A stretch of DNA of 21,977 nt, taken from positions 1 through 21,977 of the IMG/VR virus record IMGVR_UViG_3300039051_000017; one strand, written 5' to 3'. Below the pieces are notes generated by a model. It saw only the letters and a list, made by a program, of their open reading frames with translations. It was not told where the DNA came from and searched no databases. Positions 7,171 through 21,977 of the stretch are shown here, in pieces (within the stretch, counting starts at the first letter, position 1; each line of letters begins with the position of its first letter). Origin of the DNA: a virus. Both the position numbers and the translations under genes were made by a program.

Positions 7171-8023
7171 TGTTGAGGTCACAAAGAGGGACTGCCTTGG
7201 GTGTGGGGAAGAGTTTGAAAGCCGAACATTCTTGGTCTGTGGGGTGCGTATCAATCTTGACCGAGGTTTTTGTCCAGCCTGCCGGGATAAAAAGGCTGCC
7301 GAGCTAGCAGCGAGAGAAGAGGCAGAGCGGTTGGCTGGTATTGCCAGGAAAAGACGAGAGTGGCGTTATGGTTGTGGGATGCCTATAAAGTTTATGAATG
7401 AAGAGTTCGGGACATTTGAGAGTGAGAGGCAGCCAAGGGCTTACAAGAAATGTGTTGCCTATGCTGAGCATTTCCCACTACTGAAGCCTAGAGGCTATCC
7501 ATCACTGGTGAGCCTCTCGGCTGGGGACTGGGGGGTGGGTAAGACTCATCTCGTCTGTTCCATAATTCACCATATCCTTAATCGTTGGAATGGAGAGGAG
7601 ATAAGCTGCCCAGTGCTATTTATCACTGAGCCAGACCTCTTCCGCAGGATTCAGGCAACCTATAATATACCGCCAGAAGAGAGGGCATGGCATGAGACGG
7701 AAAACGATGTCTTTAATCAGTTAATCAGAGTTCCCCTCCTGATACTGGATGATGTTGGTAAGGAAGAGAGAGCGGACCCTAGATTTGTGCAGAGGGTTCT
7801 GTTTGCCATTATTGACGGCCGTTACAGGCTGACACTGCCGATAGTGCTGACAACAAACCTCAGTCCTGAGCAATTGAGTGCTCATCTCGGTGGTGAGCGA
7901 GGGAACGAAGCAAGTTACGATAGACTCGTGGAGATGACTGGGGGCAAGTTTATTCAACTCAAGGGGGAAAGTTACCGGAGGCTAAAAGGTGGGACGAAGC
8001 AGGGACAAAATAGCCCTCACTGA
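7160..8023 (+). CDS. DnaC-like AAA+ helicase loader with N-terminal zinc finger (287 aa)
   Basis: Residues 12-41 contain CxxC ... CPAC (C12, C15, C38, C41), a probable zinc finger. A helical linker leads to the AAA+ core: Walker A GDWGVGKT at 122-129, Walker B LLILDDVG at 193-200, sensor TTN at 231-233 and an Arg in SYDRL near 255. These are the features of DnaC/IstB-type loaders, which place the replicative helicase on DNA. Start is TTG 7160, inside the end of the organizer gene, which suggests coupling. No phage helicase gene is seen in the window, so it may load the host DnaB. The nuclease gene overlaps its 3' end by 35 bases. Confidence 0.8.
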   Translation: MNNNVEVTKRDCLGCGEEFESRTFLVCGVRINLDRGFCPACRDKKAAELAAREEAERLAGIARKRREWRYGCGMPIKFMNEEFGTFESERQPRAYKKCVAYAEHFPLLKPRGYPSLVSLSAGDWGVGKTHLVCSIIHHILNRWNGEEISCPVLFITEPDLFRRIQATYNIPPEERAWHETENDVFNQLIRVPLLILDDVGKEERADPRFVQRVLFAIIDGRYRLTLPIVLTTNLSPEQLSAHLGGERGNEASYDRLVEMTGGKFIQLKGESYRRLKGGTKQGQNSPH

Positions 8024-9387: not shown

Positions 9388-9860
9388 TTGAGAGGTGGTA
9401 TAGCTACGTTGTTTTTCGCTTTACCTTGGAGCAGATATTTTGGGCTTTGCAGAACAAAATTAGCTTTTATAACGGTGAGTGGCCACCATGTATAGGGGAA
9501 TTTATAACCGATGAATATGATAAACAGCAAAAAGAGTGGGTTGAGGTTATAAAGCAAGCTTCAACCTATACTGAGGCTCCAATTGGCAAAAGGCAGATAA
9601 AGTGTGAGGCTTATTTCGCTAAACCTGCAACTATCATTGCTGAAATAGACAAGCGCCTTGAAACTACTAGGGAAGCTGGTGAGGCTCTTTTAGATGAGAT
9701 AAATGCCGGCATAACGGATATAGACAGTCTTAGCCGTCCAGCGCGGAGGGCTTTGAATTATATATCGGGGTGGAGAAGGCGGAGACAAAGTTATTCAGAA
9801 TGGAAAAAACAGAGAACTTATAGGCAGAAAAGGGATGAAGCCGTTATATCAAGACATTAA
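9384..9860 (+). CDS. Hypothetical protein with basic C terminus (158 aa)
   Basis: GTG start at 9384 in a GTGA overlap. The N-terminal part is aromatic (WYSYVVFRFTLEQIFWALQN; ISFYNGEWPPCIGEF), the middle is helical and acidic, and the C-terminal 40 residues are strongly basic (GWRRRRQSYSEWKKQRTYRQ), which points to nucleic-acid contact. No named domain. The methyltransferase gene starts 26 bases before its end, so the two are probably translated together and may work together. Confidence 0.5.
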   Translation: MIERWYSYVVFRFTLEQIFWALQNKISFYNGEWPPCIGEFITDEYDKQQKEWVEVIKQASTYTEAPIGKRQIKCEAYFAKPATIIAEIDKRLETTREAGEALLDEINAGITDIDSLSRPARRALNYISGWRRRRQSYSEWKKQRTYRQKRDEAVISRH

Positions 9861-11643
9861 AGAAAGCGACAGATTATTTTATAAAGACCTTCATAATTGG
9901 CTCTTCAACGGTGATGCACGCAATATGTGGGAATTGCCTGACGAGTGTATCCAGATGGTTTGTTGCTCCCCACCCTACTGGGGACTTCGCAAGTATTCTG
10001 GATTAACTGACCTGGTGTGGGGAGATAAGGATTGTGAGCATCAGTGGGATACCTCAGATAGATGGTTGCATAGAGGGTCAACTAAATCGCCAATTGAAGC
10101 AGGTAGGGGAAGAATGACCGAGGCAAGAACCACAGATAACTTCTGCTCCCTCTGTGGAGCTTGGAGAGGCAGTTATGGTTTAGAGCCAACGCCGGAGATG
10201 TATATTGAGCATACCATAGAGATATTAAGGGAGATAAGAAGGGTATTGAGGAAGGACGGGGTGGTGTTCTGGAATATTGGGGATAGCTATGCTGCTGGTA
10301 AGGGTACTTGTTTTAATCCTGGTGGCGGTAAGGGTAGTTTTTCAACTCACGGAGACCGCAAGGATGCTGGTATTTATCCACTAGACAGAGGTAATGTCTC
10401 TATGCTTAGGGCATCCGGTCTCAAACCCAAAGACCTCTGCCTCATTCCTTTCCGTGTAGCCATAGCCGCCCAAGAAGATGGCTGGTGGGTAAGGTCGGTA
10501 ATAATCTGGTCAAAGCCCAATCCTATGCCGGAGAGCGTTACTGATAGACCTACGGAGAGCCACGAGTATATATTGATGCTGACTAAATCAGGCACAACTC
10601 AATATTGGACACATAGAGACCACGCCGGGACTAGAGAGAAGCCGAAGGCTGATTATAGGTGGGTGAAATATGGTGTGCCAGATGAAAAGGCTATACAAAA
10701 AGAGATTGGGGGTATGGCTCGTAGAACTGTTTGGGAAGAGCGTGATGGCGAAGATAGAGGGTGGCGTGATGCTGCCGACCGCAAACATTCAGATATTGTG
10801 GAAGAGGTAGGCATTGCGCCGGCTGACTGGAAGGTAAAGATAAAGTGTCCTCAGTGCGAGGCTACCGGTAGGATGTCAGTCTATCTGGGCTTGGATGTCT
10901 GGCAGGATATAGACTGCGATATGTGCCACGGCAAAAAGGAAACCCAGTTGTGGAAGCGGATAAACCTTTGGAGAGGACACGATTATTACTGGGATGCGGA
11001 TGCGGTGAGAGAGACATATATAGAGCCGTTAAATAGATGGGGTGGCGACACTCTCAAGAGAGATACATCAAAGACAGCAGCCTATAAAGATATGTTAAAC
11101 ATTGGCTATAGTAGTGCCTTTAGGGTAGGCAGACCAATGAGACCAAATGAAGCTGGTCGCAACATCCGCACAGTATGGGAGTTTCCAACTCAGCCCTACC
11201 CCGAAGCCCACTTCGCAGTATTCCCGGAGAAACTACCTGAAACTTGTATTAAGGTAGCCACGCCAGAAGTAGGATGCTGTAGTAAGTGTGGGGCGCCGTG
11301 GGAGAGGGTAACAAAGCCAACGGAAGGATATGCTGAATTACTGGGCAGGGATTGGAATATACAGGAGAAAGATAAAGCTGAAGGGAAGATTGCGGGGCAT
11401 CACAGGAAGCACAATGCACCATCTCTTACTGCTGAATATGAAACTCTAGGCTGGCGACCAACCTGCGACTGTAAGAAAGTAGACAGTTGTCGACCTTCTC
11501 TAGTCCTTGACCCTTTTGCTGGCACTGGCACAACTGGCTGGGTAGCAAAGAAATTGGGTCGGTACTGCGTTATGTATGATTTATCGGAAGAATATTGTCA
11601 GCTTAATGTTGAAAGGAACAGGCAACAAGTTATGGGGTTATAA
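9835..11643 (+). CDS. DNA methyltransferase, beta-type motif order, with zinc-ribbon inserts (602 aa)
   Basis: The catalytic motif SPPYWG (residues 45-50) is near the N terminus and the SAM-binding motif DPFAGTGTTG (559-568) near the C terminus, i.e. catalytic motif first and SAM motif last, as in beta-class amino-methyltransferases that modify N4 of cytosine or N6 of adenine. Between them lie LEPTPEMYIEH and GVVFWNIGDSYA, typical of phage members, and a long recognition region. Three cysteine pairs sit near residues 104-107, 338-364 and 480-484, suggesting zinc ribbons that help target recognition. It likely protects phage DNA or marks it for replication or packaging. No restriction enzyme partner is adjacent. 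It is about twice the length of minimal enzymes of this class because of the insert. Confidence 0.85.
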   Translation: MKPLYQDIKESDRLFYKDLHNWLFNGDARNMWELPDECIQMVCCSPPYWGLRKYSGLTDLVWGDKDCEHQWDTSDRWLHRGSTKSPIEAGRGRMTEARTTDNFCSLCGAWRGSYGLEPTPEMYIEHTIEILREIRRVLRKDGVVFWNIGDSYAAGKGTCFNPGGGKGSFSTHGDRKDAGIYPLDRGNVSMLRASGLKPKDLCLIPFRVAIAAQEDGWWVRSVIIWSKPNPMPESVTDRPTESHEYILMLTKSGTTQYWTHRDHAGTREKPKADYRWVKYGVPDEKAIQKEIGGMARRTVWEERDGEDRGWRDAADRKHSDIVEEVGIAPADWKVKIKCPQCEATGRMSVYLGLDVWQDIDCDMCHGKKETQLWKRINLWRGHDYYWDADAVRETYIEPLNRWGGDTLKRDTSKTAAYKDMLNIGYSSAFRVGRPMRPNEAGRNIRTVWEFPTQPYPEAHFAVFPEKLPETCIKVATPEVGCCSKCGAPWERVTKPTEGYAELLGRDWNIQEKDKAEGKIAGHHRKHNAPSLTAEYETLGWRPTCDCKKVDSCRPSLVLDPFAGTGTTGWVAKKLGRYCVMYDLSEEYCQLNVERNRQQVMGL

Positions 11644-12406: not shown

Positions 12407-13535
12407 GGCATGGCTGGGCGGTAAGCGCCGAGCTAAGAATGAGGGGGGGACTGCTTCGAGTAAAACATTCTCAATCCTTCAAGCGATTATCCTGATAGTT
12501 CAGAACGCTAAGGCTCCTCTCCTCATCTCCGTAGTAAGTGAGACCCTACCACATCTCAAGCGAGGTTGTATAAGGGACTTCTTCCGGATACTAGAGGAGA
12601 GTCCAGACGATAACCCGCGGTATAACAAGACAGAGCACACCTACACCTTTGGCAATGGTAAGGTTGAGTTCTTCGGTGCCGATGAAGCCGACAAGGTAAG
12701 AGGGCCAAGGCGTGACATTCTGTTTATCAATGAGGCCAATAACATACCCTGGGAGACGGCTAGAGGACTTGACATAAGAACGGCGCTCTTTACCTTCCTT
12801 GACTGGAACCCGGTTAGTGAGTTTTGGGCGCATGAGAACTGGCTGGAACCTGAAAACGCATACATTCATTCTACCTACCTTGATGCTATGCACGTCCTAC
12901 CCCCGGAAGTAGTAGCCAATATAGAGTCTTATAGGGATAAGGACCCTAACTGGTGGAATATATACGGCCTGGGCTTGATAGGTAAGGTAGAGGGCTTGGT
13001 TTATCCGTACTTCGACCAAGTAGATGACCTTCCAAAAGGCGACATCTTCTACGGTCTTGACTTCGGTTTTAGCGGCGACCCGGCAGTTCTAGTGGCCAAT
13101 GTCATCATAGGCGAGAACCTCTATAGCAAGGAATTGTTTTACGAACAATTGTTAACGAATGATGCAATAGCCAGAAAGATGGACTTGCTTGGAGTGAAGC
13201 ATAACTATGATGAGATATTCGCTGATTGTGCCGAACCCAAGTCAATCCAGGAGATTTACGAAAAGCAATTCAATATCAAACCAAGTGAGAAGGGGCAAGG
13301 GAGTGTAGAGTACGGCCAGCAAAAGGTTAACCAATACAAACAGCACTGGACAAAGGATTCACTTAACTGCATCAAAGAGCAAAGGAACTTTCGCTATATC
13401 CCGGATAAGAATGGCAAATTGACAGAGAAGACAACACACGCATTTTCGCATGGTATGGCAGCCAGAAGGTATGCCGTATCAACTCACATCGTACCTACTG
13501 GGCGTCAGGCTAGGAAAGCCAGTAGTTACCTATAG
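12354..13535 (+). CDS. terL: Terminase large subunit, PBSX/Terminase_3-like (393 aa)
   Basis: This is the motor that pumps DNA into the prohead and cuts it. ATPase: deviant Walker A GGTASSKT (residues 31-38), Walker B DILFINE (121-127), coupling motif TFLDWNP (147-153). Nuclease: FYGLDFGFSGDP gives D236 and EIFADCAEPKS gives D291. The C-terminal position expected to carry the third acid, in the usual N/H-H-x-x-D-A-x-R-Y pattern, reads SHGMAARRY, with Ala 369 in place of Asp. Start is GTG 12354 by frame; ATG 12372 is an alternative that would shorten it by six residues. Length is slightly short for the family. Confidence 0.9.
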   Translation: MSELVDMTLTRIYEENLEAWLGGKRRAKNEGGTASSKTFSILQAIILIVQNAKAPLLISVVSETLPHLKRGCIRDFFRILEESPDDNPRYNKTEHTYTFGNGKVEFFGADEADKVRGPRRDILFINEANNIPWETARGLDIRTALFTFLDWNPVSEFWAHENWLEPENAYIHSTYLDAMHVLPPEVVANIESYRDKDPNWWNIYGLGLIGKVEGLVYPYFDQVDDLPKGDIFYGLDFGFSGDPAVLVANVIIGENLYSKELFYEQLLTNDAIARKMDLLGVKHNYDEIFADCAEPKSIQEIYEKQFNIKPSEKGQGSVEYGQQKVNQYKQHWTKDSLNCIKEQRNFRYIPDKNGKLTEKTTHAFSHGMAARRYAVSTHIVPTGRQARKASSYL

Positions 13536-13544
13536 GAGTAATGA

Positions 13545-15257
13545 ATGGATACAACATTAGAGATTGTTGAAAAGAGGGTGGCGGAACTTCAGCCATTATA
13601 CGACCGGATGGATAAAACCAGCGCTCTCGTCTATCTTAGCCCTTTTAAGCTTGAAAACTTTAAAGGTGACCCCATAGATAATGTCGTCAATGTAACCACG
13701 AACTGGCCGGCTATATATGCTAATGCTATCATCTCAGACCTTATGGGTGCGGTATGGCAAACAGTCATTGAGAGTGAGGGCAAATTATCGGATAAGCAGA
13801 AGCACGATATAGAGAACTTCATAGATGACAATCTGGCACAGGCAGACGAACAGTTAGCACGGAAAGGTATTGCAGACTTATTTACCTGGCTCTGTAACCA
13901 TGTTTGTATCAGGAGCCTGATTGGAGCACGCTGGATTTCTCAGTTTGAAGGGGACTCTTATAAGATAGATTGCCTGCCGGTGGATATGCGCTGGTGTCCG
14001 TTTGAGTTAGGCAAAGACGGCCTAAAGTGGGCAGCACCGAAATCCACTCGCAGTAAGGCAAAAATCCTTTCAGAATATGGGATAGAGATTACCGAAGATG
14101 AGGTTGAAGTAACCGATTTTTGGGATAGTGAAAAGAACGAGGTATATCTTGGCAAGGACTTGGCTCCGGGGTGGCCAAAAAAGCACGGCTTCGGTTATCC
14201 CCCCTTCGTGATAGTAATTCCCTCTTCTGGCTTTATGCTGAGGGATAAAGGTTGGATAGAGCATGAGGCTGAGGATTTATTCTTCATGAATCGGGCTTTA
14301 TATGAGGAGCGCAGTCGTCAAATGTCTATTGAGCAAACTTTAGGCATGGATGTGCTTTTCCCTCCCTATGAACAGGAAACGGAAGAGTCTGGGACGGCAG
14401 CAGATAAGCCACCCAAAACTGGAGAAACAACAAAGGTCAGAAAGGGTGAACTGCACAAGCTTCTTCCCAGGGGAGACATAACCAATGCCTTCCGTGCCAG
14501 CCGTGCTGATATTCAGAGGGACTTACAGATGGGCGGTGTCAATGATATAGACCTGGGCAATGTGAGCCAAACAGTGTCAGGGGTGTGGATTACTGAGCAG
14601 TCAGAGATACGCAATAAGCTAATTAAACCCAGATTAAAAGCCTTGGCTGCGTTCCGTCAACAGTCAGCCCGGATGATGATTGACCAGTATATCAAGCTCA
14701 GTGAGAAGGCTAAAAAGAGTAAGTCTGAAATCTCAATCGGTGTTGCTGGCCGGAAGCGTAAGTATACTGCCCAGCAACTAGGAGACCCTGGCACCTACAC
14801 TATAACAAACCAATTGATGTCCAAAAGCAAGAAGCAGGAAATTGTTAATTTGGCAATGTTTCAGGCAGCTCGGGGAGAATTACCGCTAAGGGTGAGGCTG
14901 ACCGATATTCTAATGGCTGACGACCCAGACGGGATAATGCGGGAGCTTGACATTGAACAGGCTCGCCGTGCTGACCCAGCCCTAGCCCTATTTGAGATGG
15001 CTGTTAGATATGCTGAGGATGCGGAAGAGCTGTCAGGGCTCGATGCCGAGAAGAGAAAGATAGAATCAATGATGCTGACCGAAAGAGGATGTGCAATTAT
15101 TAGACAGCGAGCCCAAGTGCAGCAACCGTTACCAGAGGAAGCAACTGTTCCGCAGGTAGAAGGTAAGGAATCTGGTATTGAGAAGATAATGCCTTTACTA
15201 GGGGGAGGTAGACTAGGCGGTGGTAGACAACGTGAGGCACCGGAGGAGGAGATTTAG
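13545..15257 (+). CDS. Portal protein (570 aa)
   Basis: ATG 13545 lies six bases after TAGGAG. Position directly after terL, length and general pattern fit a portal: an N-terminal helical wing (NVVNVTTNWPAIYANAIISD), a central beta-rich region with PVDMRWCPFELG, a stem/crown region (RADIQRDLQMGGVNDIDLGN, SGVWITEQSEIRNKLIKPRL, KALAAFRQQSARMMIDQYIK) and a charged, Gly-rich tail. The protein forms the 12-subunit ring at the capsid vertex through which DNA passes. Its TAG shares two bases with the stop of the HNH gene on the other strand. Confidence 0.75.
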   Translation: MDTTLEIVEKRVAELQPLYDRMDKTSALVYLSPFKLENFKGDPIDNVVNVTTNWPAIYANAIISDLMGAVWQTVIESEGKLSDKQKHDIENFIDDNLAQADEQLARKGIADLFTWLCNHVCIRSLIGARWISQFEGDSYKIDCLPVDMRWCPFELGKDGLKWAAPKSTRSKAKILSEYGIEITEDEVEVTDFWDSEKNEVYLGKDLAPGWPKKHGFGYPPFVIVIPSSGFMLRDKGWIEHEAEDLFFMNRALYEERSRQMSIEQTLGMDVLFPPYEQETEESGTAADKPPKTGETTKVRKGELHKLLPRGDITNAFRASRADIQRDLQMGGVNDIDLGNVSQTVSGVWITEQSEIRNKLIKPRLKALAAFRQQSARMMIDQYIKLSEKAKKSKSEISIGVAGRKRKYTAQQLGDPGTYTITNQLMSKSKKQEIVNLAMFQAARGELPLRVRLTDILMADDPDGIMRELDIEQARRADPALALFEMAVRYAEDAEELSGLDAEKRKIESMMLTERGCAIIRQRAQVQQPLPEEATVPQVEGKESGIEKIMPLLGGGRLGGGRQREAPEEEI

Positions 15258-15787
15258 AGGAGCTGGTGTTGGTTATTAAGCATACCTTCAAGTTCCTGAA
15301 TACGCTTAGCTTTAGCTTGGAGAAGAAGGTAATGCTTCTTGTTGGGCAGGGCTTGCAGATTTACAGGTCTATTGTCGTCTGGTATTCCATTAAGATGGTG
15401 AATAATCCAGCCTTTAGGCAAGCGTTTACCGTGTGCTTGTTCCCATACAACGATATGTTCAAGGACATAGCCAGTTTTATGTGCTCTGGGGTGGTCAGGT
15501 TTAAGAATAAGAATATAACCAGCCTTATTCTTATTGCGCCCCCCTCCCCAACTGGGATTTCTTTCTCTACAGCTAGATTTCAGGACATCCATTTTGCCTT
15601 CTGCCCAACGCAATTTTGTATCGCAGGACTTACACCGTATACTCTCACCTGATTTCTTCTTTCCACAATCAGGGCATATATGCGAAAGTATTGTTCTATG
15701 TTGATACATACATTTTAAACAGCGCTGAGCATATTTGGTGATAGGCTTACCGCAGTCTATGCAAGTATTAGTTTTATTGTTGGTCAT
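15254..15787 (-). CDS. HNH homing endonuclease with two N-terminal zinc ribbons (177 aa)
   Basis: The only convincing gene on the - strand. Residues 9-26 (CIDC...CLKC) and 38-55 (CPDC...CKSC) are two zinc ribbons. The nuclease part is GYVLEHIVVWEQAHG, LPKGWIIHHLNGIPDDN and VNLQALPNKKHY, with H111, H130/H131, N139 and H152 forming the HNH metal site. Such proteins cut a phage allele lacking the insertion and spread by repair. The gene fills the space between portal and the next gene: its TAA overlaps the portal TAG, and its promoter reaches into the ribosome site of the next gene. It is transcribed against the operon, which suggests independent control. Confidence 0.85.
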   Translation of the reverse strand: MTNNKTNTCIDCGKPITKYAQRCLKCMYQHRTILSHICPDCGKKKSGESIRCKSCDTKLRWAEGKMDVLKSSCRERNPSWGGGRNKNKAGYILILKPDHPRAHKTGYVLEHIVVWEQAHGKRLPKGWIIHHLNGIPDDNRPVNLQALPNKKHYLLLQAKAKRIQELEGMLNNQHQLL

Positions 15788-15793
15788 AATACT

Positions 15794-15822
15794 ATTGTAT
15801 CATATTGTCATTTGGGTGTCAA
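15794..15822 (-). promoter_or_regulatory. Sigma70-type promoter of the HNH gene, predicted leaderless transcript
   Basis: On the - strand TTGACA (15822-15817), a 17-base spacer and TACAAT (15799-15794) make a near-perfect promoter. The ATG of the HNH gene begins six bases after the -10 box, where transcription normally starts, so the mRNA should begin at or next to its start codon. The -35 box overlaps the AAGGAG ribosome site (15821-15826) of the + strand gene at 15835. Confidence 0.8.
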
Positions 15823-15834
15823 GGAGATTGAAAT

Positions 15835-15987
15835 ATGAGTAAAATTAAATGGGATAAGACCGATGTTATACGGAAGTTCCAAGAGGCCATGTCACCTGAA
15901 CAGTCCAAGACTGGGCAGAGGTCAAATGTGCTCAAGACCTTACTGGATAAGGCAAAACTCAGAGGAGCTAAAGGGACTGCTAGATGA
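15835..15987 (+). CDS. Small basic hypothetical protein (50 aa)
   Basis: ATG 15835 follows AAGGAG (15821-15826) at eight bases. The product (WDKTDVIRKFQEAMSPEQSK, then SNVLKTLLDKAKLRGAKG) is short, helical and Lys-rich. Its TGA overlaps the ATG of the giant gene (ATGA), so it is probably the first gene of the post-portal operon. No family recognised. Confidence 0.5.
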   Translation: MSKIKWDKTDVIRKFQEAMSPEQSKTGQRSNVLKTLLDKAKLRGAKGTAR

Positions 15988-18900
15988 ATAGCAACAATGA
16001 CGATAGTATCACCAAGGTATTGCAACGTTATGGCACATCTCTAGCCGAAACGAGGCTGTTGATGCCCGAGCTGACTGAGGCTATCAAGAGGCAACGGGCT
16101 GTAAAACCACCAACTTTCCCTCAAGTGCCCCAGCTCTTTACTGCTGAAGAGATAAAAGAGTTTGGTGTGGAGCTAGAGGCTGGGTGGATGCTGAAGCTGA
16201 CCCCGGATGAAACAGAGATTGGCTTTTCTCAAAGGCTCATTAGTCCCCAGGGTGAGGAGTTGTCCTTTGAAGATGTCTTTATATCACCGGAGGGAAAGTG
16301 GGTTACAAGGGCGGAGATGGAAGCACAGTATGCCCCGGCAGTAGGGATTGAGCCAGAACTGGATGAGCTTGTAACATCCTTTAGTGAGGTGGTTGCTAGT
16401 ATAACCGATTTAGAGCAGCGACTTGCCGTGGCTGTTGGACCCCCAGAGCGGGATAGACTTGAGATGGAATTGCGCGCTGCTAATACTGAATTTGAGGAGT
16501 TTTTTCAAGGGTTAATAGAAACAGGGCGAACAGATGAAACCGAAGTCTTTTTGAGGGCATTAGGGGCTAGTGAGGCACAGATTGAGGAGTTCTTTGGGGC
16601 ACCTGCGCCTGCTGGTCAGCCATTCTCTTTTGACCTTCTAAAAGGTATTGTTCCCGAGGCAACTCAAGAGCAATATGATGAGATAGTAGCCCAAATAAAT
16701 AGATTTTGGCGCACTGACCCTGTTGAGGATGTAGCGCGTGGGCATCTAGGGGTATATTGGCGTTACCGGGTTGGCTGGGATTTAAGTGATGCTGATATAG
16801 ACATTCTGGCTAAAGCAATGGCTGAAAGCCATAGGCTTAGATTTGCGGGAACTGACCCTACTTTGTGGACTAAAGCCACCGCTTCTTTTCAGGCAGGGGT
16901 GGGCGACCTATTAAGCAATATGGGTTGGTTGATGGAATGGATGGGACGACCCGAATCAGAGTATCAAGGTTGGAAAGACCTTGGTCAAATATACCAATCA
17001 ACCTATATGCCACCAGCTAATCCACAGGAATTTACTTGGCGAAGTTTATTAGACCCTGAATGGTGGGCGACATCAGTAACCAGGGCAGTGCCTTTTACTT
17101 TATCTTTGATACCAGCGGCATTGGGGGGTGCTTATGGTGGGGCAGCTATAGCGGGGGTACTAGGGTTAGGAAAATTCGGAACACTTATCTTGGCTTCCAT
17201 TGGGGCTGGGGCAGTATCAAGACCAATGGAATCGGCAATGGAAGCTGCTGGAGTATATGAGCAAGCGTATGAACGAGCGATTGCCGAAGGGCGGTCTGAG
17301 GAAGAGGCTATTGCTGAAGGTAATGCTGCGGCTGATAAGGCTTTCCGAGAAGATATGGCACTGGTAGGGATGGATGTTGGCGAATTTGCTATGGCTTTCT
17401 TTCCAGTTAAAGGGGGAGGCTCGGCAGTTAAGCACATACTTCTCAGGAGAATAGCATCGGCTGGGGGCAAGATAGTTACAGTGGGAATAATGGAAGCTGC
17501 CGAAGAGGGGTTTCAAGATATGGTGCAGAGAAGGGCACTGGGTGAAGAGGTGGCATTAGACCCACAAATGACTGAGGCTATGGCAATCGGATTTATCTTT
17601 GGTGCTGGTATGGGTGGCACCGGTGCTGTTTACGATACTTTGATAAAACGAATTAAAAATGATATGAGTCCAGAACTATTATCTGACCTTGAGCGATTTA
17701 AGTCTGAAGGTATGGCACAGGGATTAACAGAAGACCAGGCTGAGTTACAGGCGCTTGATAAGATAGCTGAAACCCCAGAAGGGGCGGCAAGCATTGAAGA
17801 AACGATGCTGGAGATAAGGGAGAAGATAAAAGAGATAGAAGTTAAACCTAAAGAGCTTGAGCTTGATGTCTTTATGGAAATCCCAGAGTCACCGAATATT
17901 GTTGAAGGTGTTATGGCTGATAGTTGGCACAGAACCGTATTGCAGAAAGTGGGCAAAGTGCCACCTATTAAAAAGGTCATTGAGTGGGGACTGGGCACTA
18001 GGATATTGGTCAACAGGCAGTCAGAAGCCATAGAGGACATAGTGGGGCAAGGTAAATTCCTTCACACCGAGATACTCAGGAGAGGGGAAGGCAGTCGGTC
18101 CCTTGTGTATTGGACACTGTTTAATATAGACCCAAACCCGGTTAAGCTGTTCGGTTTCAACAAACAAGCTGTTTCTACGAAGGTAAAGCCGTTGACTAAA
18201 GAGGCTGATGGTACGCTGGAGGATATATTTACTCATCCTGAGAGATATTCCCTGACTTGGAAGCAGATGCAATATGTAACCAAGGTGCATCAAATAAACA
18301 CTTTAATACTAAATATGCTTAGGAAAGAGGGAGTAGCCCCTGATGTAGTCGGTGAGTCCTGGTGGGTGCATAGAGTTGTTGAGGGCAAGTATGACCCTAA
18401 TGGCGAGTTACATAAGGTTAGAGGTAAGCCGGGAGTAAGGCACGGGCGTATAGGAGCTAAGGCAGCCTTTGAGATGCACAGGAAAGCTCCGACTATGGCA
18501 GAAGGTATTAGTTGGGGTATTCAATACGGTCGCAACCCAGCGGAATATGTCAGCACCTACATGGAGGAAGCATTTAAGAAGATAGCTGACGCCAGGTTTG
18601 AGAAGTATATTGCCGAGAAGTTGGAGCCATTAGCTAAAATGGGTGTTCTGCCTACAGAGGAATTATTGAGGAAATACCCTGAGATTGTGGAAAGGGCAAT
18701 TATAACGGCTGAGGAATTAGCTGACGTTAACAGCTTTACCGATAAAATCAATAGGGCTATCAGGGGAGAGAGGATACCAGCGCAGACATTGAAGGCGATT
18801 GAAAGACGGTTCCCTGAGCTGGGTAAAAGATTCAAGGCATTGGTTGAGGCACCAGTAGTAGAGGTAAAGCAGTTAAGGGATTTGCTCACTCAACAAGCAC

Positions 18901-21900
18901 GGACTATCCAGAATTTAACAAGGAGATTAGAGAAGGTCAAGGCAGTTGATGTTGAAGCGGTAAAGGCTGAGGCAACAGCTAAGGCGAGGGCTGAAATAGA
19001 GGCTGAAGTCGGGGTTGCTATACCCAATGAGCAGAAGTTGGCTGAAGCCTTCAAGATAATGGACTACGAGGATAGGTTGGCTTTCAGGTCTACGATGGAA
19101 AGCCTCATGGCTGAAGTTGAGCAGGTGATTGCTGAACAGGAGATGGAATATCGGGGCACTTTGGAATTCTTAAGGACTGACCCAGTGGCTACTTATCGAG
19201 GGCATATAGGCAAGAGGAAAGTATCGTTAATGGCAGTGCTTGAAAAGGGTCAATTCCCTGAATCGTTTACCCTTAAAGAAGCCGAGATGCTTCTGATGGG
19301 CAAGAAGCCCAAGACGGTGATTGAGGGGAGAGTGCCTAGAAGTGTTGTGATTGATGAGCTGGCTGACCATTTTAAGATGAGTGAGCAGGAACTCATTGAC
19401 CATATAGAGTCTATTTATCAGCAGCAATTAACTGCTAAAGACCTTAAAGTGCTAATCCAGTTGGCTGATAACAGGCAGAATGCAATCAGGCGGATGTTGG
19501 GGATACTGGATAGCGTAGATACTGAGCCTGAGTTTATTCCGCAAGCTGAGATGGCTGTGCCTAGACCAGTGGAACCAATAGCTGAAGTTATTCCTTCTGG
19601 CTACGAGATAAATAAGGTCGCTGGAGTATACGACATATACCGTCCCGATGGCAAACTGATTGGCACTAGACCAACGGAAGCAGCGGCTATTAAGTATGTT
19701 CAAGGTTATGAGGCAGAATTTAAGCTAGCAATCCCGATAGCCGAACCGGGGATGCCTGAAATCGCAAGGATAGAACAGCTTGAGGCTGATTTAGCTAGGC
19801 TAGAAAAAGAGTTGGTAGAGAAGGCTAGACCGGCAGCCATAATTAAGAAGCAAATTGAGTCTGTCAAGGGTGAGTTAGCTAGATTAAGACCAGAGGTTGA
19901 GCCTGTTGAGGCTATTGAATTACGCTCATTGCATTATCACCCAGCTAGGACACAGGGGTTTAGAAATTCCACAAGAGCGGAAATTAAAGACTACCTCAAT
20001 AGACTCAAAGAATTGGCAGGGAAAGAAGCTCCAAGTGAAGTCCCCAATATCAATGAAGCTATTAGGTCTCTTGATGTCGGCGATTTAGGAGCTGCTGGCG
20101 TAGCGGCGGATACAGCACTTAGTAAAATCCATAAGCTATACAAGATTCATCATCCTGAGTTTGAACTTGTCAAAGTCCCCAAGGCCGAACCGGGTATGCC
20201 TGAAGCTGGACTACAGCAAGATATATTTGGCTATCAAACACCAGTATTCCCCAAGGGCAAGGGTGAGGTTACTCAAATCTCAATGGATGACTATGCGAAA
20301 CTGGCTGAAGTTTGGAAGAAGGCTGGTCTACCTGAAGATGCACTGCCGGTAGCCATAAAACCCAAAGTAGAAGGGATAAAGGGATTAGAGGCGGAGACGC
20401 AGTTTCTTAAAGTTAAATATGACATACCGCCAGTAGAATCGGCAGCCGAACGCAAGGCAGCACTGGAAGCCTTACGGAAAGAAGTTAGGGAACTAACAGA
20501 AGCAAGGAGAATGCCCTACTGGGAAGCCAAAGCTGAGCGAGCTTACAGGATGCAGCAAGTAAGCCAGCCCGGTATTGATGAGGGCTATATAATGCACCCC
20601 TTTGGTCAAGGTAGGAAATTTGACCAAGAATTTATTGACGCCTTTAATAAGTTCTTTGGGCACGACTCAGGACTAAAAGCACTCAGGGCTACGGCTGATG
20701 CTGCCGGCATATTGAGAATTCTAAAGGCTGCCCTAGACTTCTCTCAACCGATGATACAGGGAACACTACCTTGGGGTTTGGCACATTCTTACTTGGTAAC
20801 TAATCCCAAGATAGGCGTTAGATTAGTGGGGGCTTGGTATCAATGTTTCTTCCAACAAATAGGAGCCTTTTTCAATCCTGGCATTATGGCTCATTTTATG
20901 GAGACAAGGCAGGATACAATTAAGCAGAGGATAGGCTTTGGTGGCAGCTCCAGGGCTGTATTCCTGTTTCAGGAAATGCAAGCCGTTGTGGGTAAAGGCC
21001 AACTAGCCCGAATGGGTGAGACGGTTTTAAGCAAGATACCTTTTGACCCTTACCACAGGGCTGAGGTCTCCTTCTTTGCTGGCGGTGAGATAGTAAGAGA
21101 TACATTTTGGGAAATCCTATCACCTGACGCTATGGCTAAGGGGCAAGAGTTTGAGTTGGCACACTATCTTGATTTACTAACGGGCATTGCCGACCCTAGA
21201 GCGATGGGCGTACCTTTGACAGTAAGGCAGTTGGAGCAGAGCTTTATCTGGTTTTCATCAGCCTATACTCGGTCATACCTAACGCTTGTAGCCGAAATAT
21301 TCAGCGGTAAGTTTACCGGAGCTAAGGCGAGAAGGGCAATAGCGGGTTTCATAGTAGCTGGTGCTGCCTACTATGTGGCTGTCCAATATGCGATTTGTAT
21401 GATTGAGGGCAAAGACGATGATGAAGCCTGGGAGACAATTAGAACGGGCTTTGGTATCTATATTGACCCGATAACAGGGGAGGTTCAATGGAGACCTACG
21501 GCTTCTCTTATGAGTCTCAAGATAGGCGACAACTACTTCGGTATTGGTGGTGGTATCTATGGACTGTTGAGGCTTTTGGGCAATATCTCGGCTACAGTCA
21601 ACGAGGTAGGCGAAAGAGAGAGAATAGACCTTATTCGCATAATGAAACACGGTAGTCTTAACAAGAGGGATAACCCCTTTATAGCTTGGTGGTATGCTCG
21701 GTCATCGGCTCTGTTTAGCCCTATATATGAGATGGCAACTAAACGGGATTTCTTGGGTTATCCCATAGAGACGCCGGGGGAATATGCCAGATATATCATA
21801 AGTCTGTTTGAGCCTATCTGGGTGGAGCAGGCAATAAATCCCCTTATACCGGGCATGGCTGGGGATAGAGAGGTGCCCGAGGATGCTTTGGAGACCGCAG

Positions 21901-21977
21901 CGTGGATTGCTGGTGAGCTTCTTGGGCTGAGAGTAAATCCCGAATACAGTTGGCAAAGGTTTTACAACAAGGCGAAT
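15984..21977 (+). CDS. Giant virion-type protein with LPD38-like region (at least 1,998 aa, 3' partial)
   Basis: One frame runs from ATG 15984 to the window end with no stop: 1,998 codons. I translated it throughout. Residues 1-350 are acidic and helical. Residues 368-412 (AVPFTLSLIPAALGGAYGGA ... LILASIGAGAVS) and 533-550 are Gly/Ala-rich hydrophobic segments. Coiled coils lie near 960-1013 and 1262-1305. The motif AEPGMPE occurs twice, at 1253 and 1401, with the second continuing AGLQQDIFG. From about 1553 (FNKFFGHDSGLKALRATADA; LKAALDFSQPMIQGTLPWGL; SSAYTRSYLTLVAEIF; a hydrophobic helix near 1806-1824) it resembles LPD38-type large polyvalent phage proteins. Such giants are thought to be carried in the capsid and injected. 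Function here is inferred, and family assignment rests on recall. Confidence 0.65.
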   Translation, partial: MNSNNDDSITKVLQRYGTSLAETRLLMPELTEAIKRQRAVKPPTFPQVPQLFTAEEIKEFGVELEAGWMLKLTPDETEIGFSQRLISPQGEELSFEDVFISPEGKWVTRAEMEAQYAPAVGIEPELDELVTSFSEVVASITDLEQRLAVAVGPPERDRLEMELRAANTEFEEFFQGLIETGRTDETEVFLRALGASEAQIEEFFGAPAPAGQPFSFDLLKGIVPEATQEQYDEIVAQINRFWRTDPVEDVARGHLGVYWRYRVGWDLSDADIDILAKAMAESHRLRFAGTDPTLWTKATASFQAGVGDLLSNMGWLMEWMGRPESEYQGWKDLGQIYQSTYMPPANPQEFTWRSLLDPEWWATSVTRAVPFTLSLIPAALGGAYGGAAIAGVLGLGKFGTLILASIGAGAVSRPMESAMEAAGVYEQAYERAIAEGRSEEEAIAEGNAAADKAFREDMALVGMDVGEFAMAFFPVKGGGSAVKHILLRRIASAGGKIVTVGIMEAAEEGFQDMVQRRALGEEVALDPQMTEAMAIGFIFGAGMGGTGAVYDTLIKRIKNDMSPELLSDLERFKSEGMAQGLTEDQAELQALDKIAETPEGAASIEETMLEIREKIKEIEVKPKELELDVFMEIPESPNIVEGVMADSWHRTVLQKVGKVPPIKKVIEWGLGTRILVNRQSEAIEDIVGQGKFLHTEILRRGEGSRSLVYWTLFNIDPNPVKLFGFNKQAVSTKVKPLTKEADGTLEDIFTHPERYSLTWKQMQYVTKVHQINTLILNMLRKEGVAPDVVGESWWVHRVVEGKYDPNGELHKVRGKPGVRHGRIGAKAAFEMHRKAPTMAEGISWGIQYGRNPAEYVSTYMEEAFKKIADARFEKYIAEKLEPLAKMGVLPTEELLRKYPEIVERAIITAEELADVNSFTDKINRAIRGERIPAQTLKAIERRFPELGKRFKALVEAPVVEVKQLRDLLTQQARTIQNLTRRLEKVKAVDVEAVKAEATAKARAEIEAEVGVAIPNEQKLAEAFKIMDYEDRLAFRSTMESLMAEVEQVIAEQEMEYRGTLEFLRTDPVATYRGHIGKRKVSLMAVLEKGQFPESFTLKEAEMLLMGKKPKTVIEGRVPRSVVIDELADHFKMSEQELIDHIESIYQQQLTAKDLKVLIQLADNRQNAIRRMLGILDSVDTEPEFIPQAEMAVPRPVEPIAEVIPSGYEINKVAGVYDIYRPDGKLIGTRPTEAAAIKYVQGYEAEFKLAIPIAEPGMPEIARIEQLEADLARLEKELVEKARPAAIIKKQIESVKGELARLRPEVEPVEAIELRSLHYHPARTQGFRNSTRAEIKDYLNRLKELAGKEAPSEVPNINEAIRSLDVGDLGAAGVAADTALSKIHKLYKIHHPEFELVKVPKAEPGMPEAGLQQDIFGYQTPVFPKGKGEVTQISMDDYAKLAEVWKKAGLPEDALPVAIKPKVEGIKGLEAETQFLKVKYDIPPVESAAERKAALEALRKEVRELTEARRMPYWEAKAERAYRMQQVSQPGIDEGYIMHPFGQGRKFDQEFIDAFNKFFGHDSGLKALRATADAAGILRILKAALDFSQPMIQGTLPWGLAHSYLVTNPKIGVRLVGAWYQCFFQQIGAFFNPGIMAHFMETRQDTIKQRIGFGGSSRAVFLFQEMQAVVGKGQLARMGETVLSKIPFDPYHRAEVSFFAGGEIVRDTFWEILSPDAMAKGQEFELAHYLDLLTGIADPRAMGVPLTVRQLEQSFIWFSSAYTRSYLTLVAEIFSGKFTGAKARRAIAGFIVAGAAYYVAVQYAICMIEGKDDDEAWETIRTGFGIYIDPITGEVQWRPTASLMSLKIGDNYFGIGGGIYGLLRLLGNISATVNEVGERERIDLIRIMKHGSLNKRDNPFIAWWYARSSALFSPIYEMATKRDFLGYPIETPGEYARYIISLFEPIWVEQAINPLIPGMAGDREVPEDALETAAWIAGELLGLRVNPEYSWQRFYNKAN

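Follow-up and report, generated by a model that had tools for sequence, protein, structure and literature searches.

The closest described systems are the mobA-E genes of T4-like phages, free-standing HNH homing endonucleases which, like the gene described here, occur as a lone HNH nuclease gene between two phage genes. In the part of PMC2988022 drawn on here, the T4 homing genes are co-oriented with their neighbours except segD, seven of the free-standing set seem to be cassettes that lack a promoter, and the promoters that do serve endonucleases belong to the middle or late class, never to the early one; an incoming promoter, according to the same account, risks disturbing the neighbours or giving antisense transcripts. 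The exception, segD, also lies backwards between head genes (23 and 24), but it is a GIY-YIG gene whose own promoter was not found and whose transcript level is assumed to be vanishingly low, as far as that part of PMC2988022 goes. How a homing gene comes to be expressed once it sits in an operon not its own is still under discussion for T4, and the backwards case there is one silent-looking exception.

Three other comparisons are useful. The hidden HNH genes of the ShiLan type also encode phage HNH proteins with zinc fingers, and a leaderless start has been proposed for them because a ribosome site was not seen (PMC11855218); they differ in that they lie within a methylase gene, in a different frame, and start with GTG, and a promoter goes unmentioned in the portion of PMC11855218 used here. 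I-HmuI is likewise an HNH homing endonuclease, but an intron-encoded one (PMC2988022, same part). Morons are the third, and from these our element differs in that it has no near terminator, encodes a nuclease, and has a promoter, leaderless by its spacing, which shares bases with the ribosome site of the neighbour.

The element was found in a stretch of 21,977 nucleotides (the window), which is bases 1-21977 of a virus record of 38,846 bases. Compared to mobA-E its HNH gene is backwards and has a host-type consensus promoter that is leaderless by spacing, compared to the ShiLan type it is antisense, between genes, and has an ATG and a promoter, and compared to I-HmuI it is free-standing. We consider it likely that this is a free-standing HNH homing-type element at the portal junction, directed against the operon and expressed by the host RNA polymerase from a sigma70-type leaderless promoter of its own. 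In the open-licence literature we found no description of leaderless promoters on HNH elements that lie backwards. Only the link of leaderless promoters with backwards nuclease elements would be new here, since leaderless consensus promoters are common in phages.

The HNH gene and its surroundings

The rest of the record encodes a P22-type coat protein, a tyrosine integrase and a terminal host-like clp gene. Since the integrase lies beside the clp gene, the record is probably an integrated temperate phage plus some host sequence. The portal gene (13545..15257, + strand) is named from its fold and from its position after the terminase gene. Its protein had neither a Pfam nor a PHROG match, one of the eight members of its family had a PHROG match at chance level (E 0.098), and a sequence search against PDB gave four unrelated matches, the best of them without a passing stretch. 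Foldseek with the portal model gave 32 matches at E <= 0.001, all of them phage portal, connector or tail-complex entries and 25 titled 'portal', in agreement with the name in the first-pass annotation; the model is of low confidence (pLDDT 54) and the fold was used for naming only. A small 50-aa gene (15835..15987, + strand, ATG at 15835), which also comes after portal in relatives, has its ribosome site, AAGGAG, at 15821..15826 (+ strand). It is followed by a frame of at least 1998 aa (15984-21977) that continues past the window edge, and Pfam and PHROG searches with the first 500 aa of this frame gave zero matches.

The HNH_3 endonuclease gene (15254..15787, - strand) encodes 177 aa from an ATG at 15787 to a TAA at 15254-15256. 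The gene fits between the portal stop and the ribosome site of the next gene, as had been noted at first reading, and the claim that its stop has two bases in common with the portal stop (TAG, 15255..15257, + strand) was also correct. The start is certain, because the in-frame codons upstream are ATT, AGT, AAT and TAC and then TGA, with no alternative start between, and because the next Met, residue 27, lies past the first two CxxC pairs, which would be lost.

The protein is a member of HNH_3 by its match to PF13392 (E 3.1e-15, 56 bits against a Pfam cut-off of 24.8), with the catalytic domain at residues 111-152 (15332..15457, - strand). Residues H130, H131, N133 and N139, which we take to be the catalytic His and Asn of HNH_3, show no variation across nine aligned relatives. 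The N-terminal part is a double zinc ribbon (15623..15763, - strand) with Cys 9/12/23/26 and 38/41/52/55, for which the DZR_2 match (E 6e-4) is under the Pfam cut-off. The top fold match of the HNH model was I-HmuI (1u3e), a weak one at E 0.095, there being zero matches at E <= 0.001 in the fold search, and a search of PDB sequences with the protein did not find a related chain. Distant matches were seen in 41 named phage records, each below 60% identity, and among cellular genomes a single relative was seen (L043).

Elsewhere in the window a DNA methylase of 602 aa (9835-11643) has its N6_N4_Mtase match broken into three stretches, and several PHROG methylase matches are confined to residues 555-598, as with a mid-gene insertion.

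Empty sites and other fillings of the junction

Portal relatives were found on 10 viral contigs (L002-L011), nine of which could be followed past portal while L011 was too partial. In four of the nine loci, representing three lineages (L002/L003, L006 and L010), nothing separates portal from the small gene that follows, which the portal stop either abuts or overlaps, and in the remaining five the junction is filled by other genes: one gene of 102-104 aa in L004 and L005, two small genes in L007, and in L008 (4960-5514) and L009 a different HNH gene, forward, with stop/start overlaps at both ends. The small gene aligns across eight rows, weakly for L007 and L008 (21-23% identity to that of the window), and the next gene of L010 is like it by eye, outside the alignment. 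Portal and the next gene are thus adjacent in relatives while the filling differs, which implies that the junction is variable, and this comparison of sequences supports the HNH gene being an element inserted between the two. The first-pass annotation had proposed such an alignment in search of the empty site; its question whether the two genes were once neighbours is answered positively by these loci, but divergence among the relatives is too great for the exact borders to be read from them. A second variable junction was noted in L005, where extra small genes (7185-7711) lie between the small gene and the subsequent large gene.

An 8-bp direct repeat, AGGAGATT, lies at the two ends of the element (left copy 15247..15254, right copy 15822..15829, both + strand; p 0.027 by shuffle, uncorrected). 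When the flanks of the window are joined at AGGAGATT, portal ends in EEEIEI and its TGA overlaps the next ATG, a usual kind of phage junction. The old junction predicted in this way was seen in none of the portal relatives, and both copies overlap purine-rich ribosome-site or Glu-codon sequence. A target-site duplication as a feature of the family was rejected, as 13 of 15 elements gave nothing beyond shuffles and only the window and L164 (8 bp, p 0.037) did.

A second empty site was found by comparing L012, which has two backwards HNH genes, to its relative L165, which is without the second and has flanks that match on both sides. Occupied and empty alleles, by which homing endonuclease genes are recognised, were consequently observed at the portal junction and at L012/L165. 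The start of the neighbour gene in L012 occurs twice; MSSLIKFQYPLWQC... is present on the promoter side, running into the gene, and a stub behind the HNH stop, MNRLTCPIWE, is the gene start of L165. In this one case the duplication has the look of a repair event that was uneven and brought in flanking sequence, as happens in homing. A weaker third empty site is the record's own junction at 29262 (a TGA/ATG overlap), which resembles the site of the element in L166: the proteins downstream share 40% identity over 75 residues, and those upstream are without a significant match, only their tails being alike. Decayed copies were also seen, the first HNH gene of L165 having no in-frame start codon and L171 having lost its N-terminal part (by eye).

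It could be argued that the gene is an ordinary moron, that is, an accessory gene that has its own promoter, was inserted a single time and is retained for some use to the phage or the lysogen, and is not homing. It sits, inverted, between genes that are adjacent in relatives, at sequence level it has a sigma70-type promoter of its own, its G+C is below that of portal (0.418 against 0.473), and the phage is probably temperate. The missing terminator is no bar, since an inverted gene without one is accepted in the part of PMC2147016 consulted. However, the protein belongs to a nuclease family, and its relatives lie in other contigs with other neighbours. Some of them are decayed, and one pair of alleles differs in having or lacking the gene, all of which fits a self-spreading gene better. 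The portal junction in relatives also has other genes, including another HNH gene. We find a moron improbable, although it is the best of the alternatives to a homing-type element.

The putative leaderless promoter and its distribution

The promoter of the HNH gene consists of a -35 box, TTGACA, at 15817..15822 and a -10 box, TACAAT, at 15794..15799, both on the - strand and exact to the base as first described. The spacer is exactly 17 and ends in TGA, which places TG ahead of the -10, and the -10 ends 6 nt (AGTATT) before the ATG. The reported overlap of the -35 with the AAGGAG of the small gene is real and amounts to 2 bp (15821-15822). Counted from its first T, the -10 is 12 nt away from the ATG, with no ribosome site in the bases between; a distance of about 12 nt from the first T of the -10 to the start, with the Shine-Dalgarno sequence absent, is how leaderless genes are recognised in the part of PMC3160421 cited here. 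By spacing the mRNA would start at the A of the ATG (15787, - strand), with a base or two of offset possible. A terminator of its own was not found near the HNH stop, the closest terminator-like site on the - strand lying 1.8 kb on, at 13452-13435, and the frequency of such sites does not exceed chance. It may well be, given this distance and frequency, that the transcript runs beneath the entire portal gene.

Only two sites matching at 11 or more of the 12 positions occur in the whole 38.8-kb record, each of them 6 nt before a - strand ATG among + strand genes, while 0.15 are expected per 22 kb on both strands (first-order Markov model of the window, 60 runs). The second, TTGACA-N17-TATTAT-N6-ATG, precedes a backwards gene of 149 aa at 33221-33670 on the - strand (L231 14222-14671). 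The protein (P0005) is PD-(D/E)XK-like, its PF11645 match (E 7e-5) being under the cut-off, and has a weak N-terminal treble-clef match. Its single relative, L234, has TACAAT 6 nt before an inner ATG and a poor -35, and these are too few to count. The record also holds two forward HNH genes. The first starts at 27368 and has TTGACT-N17-TATACT at a distance of 28 nt from its ATG with AGGAGGG between, a short leader, and the other (32146-32709) has no upstream site of 10/12 or better.

To see how the layout is distributed we used a scan with nine HNH proteins, in which 80 loci were kept of 83 relatives. Together with the second HNH gene of L012 and that of the window they make 82 rows, and 70 were left when 12 copies at least 80% identical had been removed. 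Orientation was taken from the strand share of all ORFs in a locus by a simple ORF method (below 0.35 backwards, above 0.65 forward), giving 28 backwards rows, 40 forward rows and 2 mixed rows in neither class. A site was counted when it matched at least 9/12, with a spacer of 16-18, and ended 5-7 nt before the start, and the control genes were at least 330 nt and complete in the locus. Such a site stood at the start of 13/28 backwards genes, 1/40 forward genes (L032), 0/2 mixed ones and 7/294 other genes in the loci. The difference is clear between backwards and forward rows (p 1.2e-5) and between backwards rows and other genes (p 4e-11), these p values being rough since they ignore kinship among rows that are not independent and in which the trait clusters on the tree; the HNH rows have about 4.6 candidate starts against 3.5 for the control genes. 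At 8/12 or better the counts were 17/28, 5/40 and 18/294. As the pattern had been noticed in early loci ahead of testing, the rows first fetched afterwards are a fairer test, and among these 8/21 backwards and 0/34 forward rows had it (p 1.7e-4).

All 13 matching backwards genes start with ATG, 11 of them have a spacer of 17 and 6 or 7 nt to the start, and the site of L169 is 12/12. The other 15 of the 28 are without the layout at 9/12 or better, and four rows (L178, L191, L194 and L195) have instead, by eye, a ribosome site rich in purines together with a -10 that lies about 20 nt upstream. The decayed L165 and L171 were kept among the 28 as misses, and L202 (spacer 16, inner start), which may be false, as a match. 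The first-pass proposal that the gene has its own promoter, leaderless by its spacing, gains support from this repetition of the layout in relatives.

A tree was built from the last 150 residues of 65 rows, leaving out L171, L209, L200, L213, L205 and L165 and adding L019; the label 'leaderless' was set by hand, with L021 and L166 (8/12) in and L202 out, and the mixed L184 was counted as forward. The window falls in a group of 11 whose support, 85/82, is under the usual mark, with the bootstrap not settled. Ten of this group are backwards and leaderless, and the eleventh, L168, is forward (strand share 0.8); it has GGGAGG ahead of the ATG and lacks a site at 5-7 nt. Backwards and leaderless rows are also found elsewhere in the tree (L188, L214, L027, L024 and L174). 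The label changes 7 times as compared to 13.8 when shuffled, and at least four changes are forced by well-supported branches. The trait seems, from this tree, to be partly inherited with the gene and partly repeated.

Another explanation is that the leaderless layout is simply usual in these phages or in their hosts, a general habit unconnected with HNH genes or with orientation. A scan for exact TTGACA-N17-TAYAAT-N6-ATG, unrestricted by gene type, gave at least 131 matches in at least 120 loci, which among the matches listed open at least 80 frames of 60 aa or more: 62 forward, 6 backwards and 12 mixed. The HNH profile matched 0 of these 80 frames, and 80 of the 120 listed loci (91 matches) gave the same outcome as all 120. 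That a leaderless promoter marks a homing gene is thereby ruled out, as many other phage genes have it. The layout alone marks neither homing nor backwards genes, since it is found before many, mostly forward, phage genes. Leaderless genes also occur in part of the bacteria, making up on average 39% of the genes in Deinococcus-Thermus and 4.7% in those Chloroflexi genomes, 4 of 12, that had such genes at all (PMC3160421, in the part cited above). On the other hand, the layout was found in few of the other genes in the same loci, the forward HNH genes are no different from those (p 1.0), and the two genes with an 11/12 site in this record are both backwards and nuclease-like. A general habit is in our judgement a less probable explanation than a moron.

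That the promoter match is due to chance, the HNH gene being read, if at all, from distant transcripts as supposed for T4 segD, is very unlikely: looser sites do occur at chance level (5 against 4.0 expected in the window at 10/12 or better, 8 against 7.6 at 9/12 or better in 13000-18000), but here an 11/12 match with ideal spacing stands at the place where it is needed, and the layout recurs in relatives and before a second gene of this phage.

Interlaced signals and the predicted timing of expression

For the homing-type element that we favour, we propose the following course. The HNH element would have inserted itself between portal and the gene after it, opposite to the direction of the operon. 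The strong sigma70-type promoter would start the message at the AUG, or within about a base of it, and translation of this leaderless message would be initiated without the help of a Shine-Dalgarno site. With a promoter of its own and a leaderless message, the gene could be transcribed by the polymerase of the host immediately on entry of the DNA, or in the lysogen, regardless of the switches of the phage. The protein would then cut or nick unoccupied copies, and repair from the occupied copy would spread the element. As a backwards unit, its promoter would be directed away from the operon-downstream gene and its transcript would lie under portal, whose expression it might lower. The flanking genes may otherwise bear little cost, as the first-pass annotation suggested. 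The backwards HNH set would be a compact answer to the problem of expression in a foreign operon, with promoter and AUG fused, and as the gene is predicted to be expressed in the lysogen or early during infection, when homing takes place becomes a question for direct study.

The promoters are also interlaced with signals of the neighbouring gene, whose starts are here the predicted starts of the longest frames. In the window and in L166 the -35 follows CTCC and shares bases with the AAGGAG of the neighbour, the two start codons being 46-47 nt apart, and L164 has a similar TCC at the -35. In L012, L024, L027, L188 and L169 the first codon of the neighbour lies 28 nt from the HNH ATG and overlaps the -35, which is what this distance entails, as TTGACAT reversed is ATGTCAA, Met-Ser. 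The ribosome site of the neighbour lies inside the spacer between -35 and -10 in L169 (AAGGAGG-GAAC-TTG) and L188 (GGGGGG), and none was seen for the neighbour start in L024 and L027. Six loci (L021, L022, L019, L167, L170 and L214) show a clear fit to neither form.

A more speculative suggestion, which we put forward only tentatively, is that direction sets the design: elements lying with the operon would be read via a ribosome site and those lying against it would carry the 17/6 leaderless promoter, with the -35 interlaced with the ribosome site or start codon of the neighbour (L164 perhaps). The translation start of the neighbour would depend on DNA of the element because of this interlacing, and clean loss would, we propose, be penalised. 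The nuclease would be made from entry or in the lysogen, which, if true, is the opposite of the middle or late rule in T4.

Two observations concern leaderless promoters before other genes. Across L044-L163 exact ones precede genes that by eye resemble those for an exonuclease/RNase H (T4-type), a clamp loader, thymidylate synthase and GIY-YIG proteins, mostly directed with the operon. One contig of 146 kb (L101, IMGVR_UViG_3300023174_000064) has eight TTGACA-N17-TACAAT-N6-ATG sites within 14.8 kb. At four of these the ATG is preceded by ACACAC, and this may be a phage in which a group of leaderless genes shares one type of promoter.
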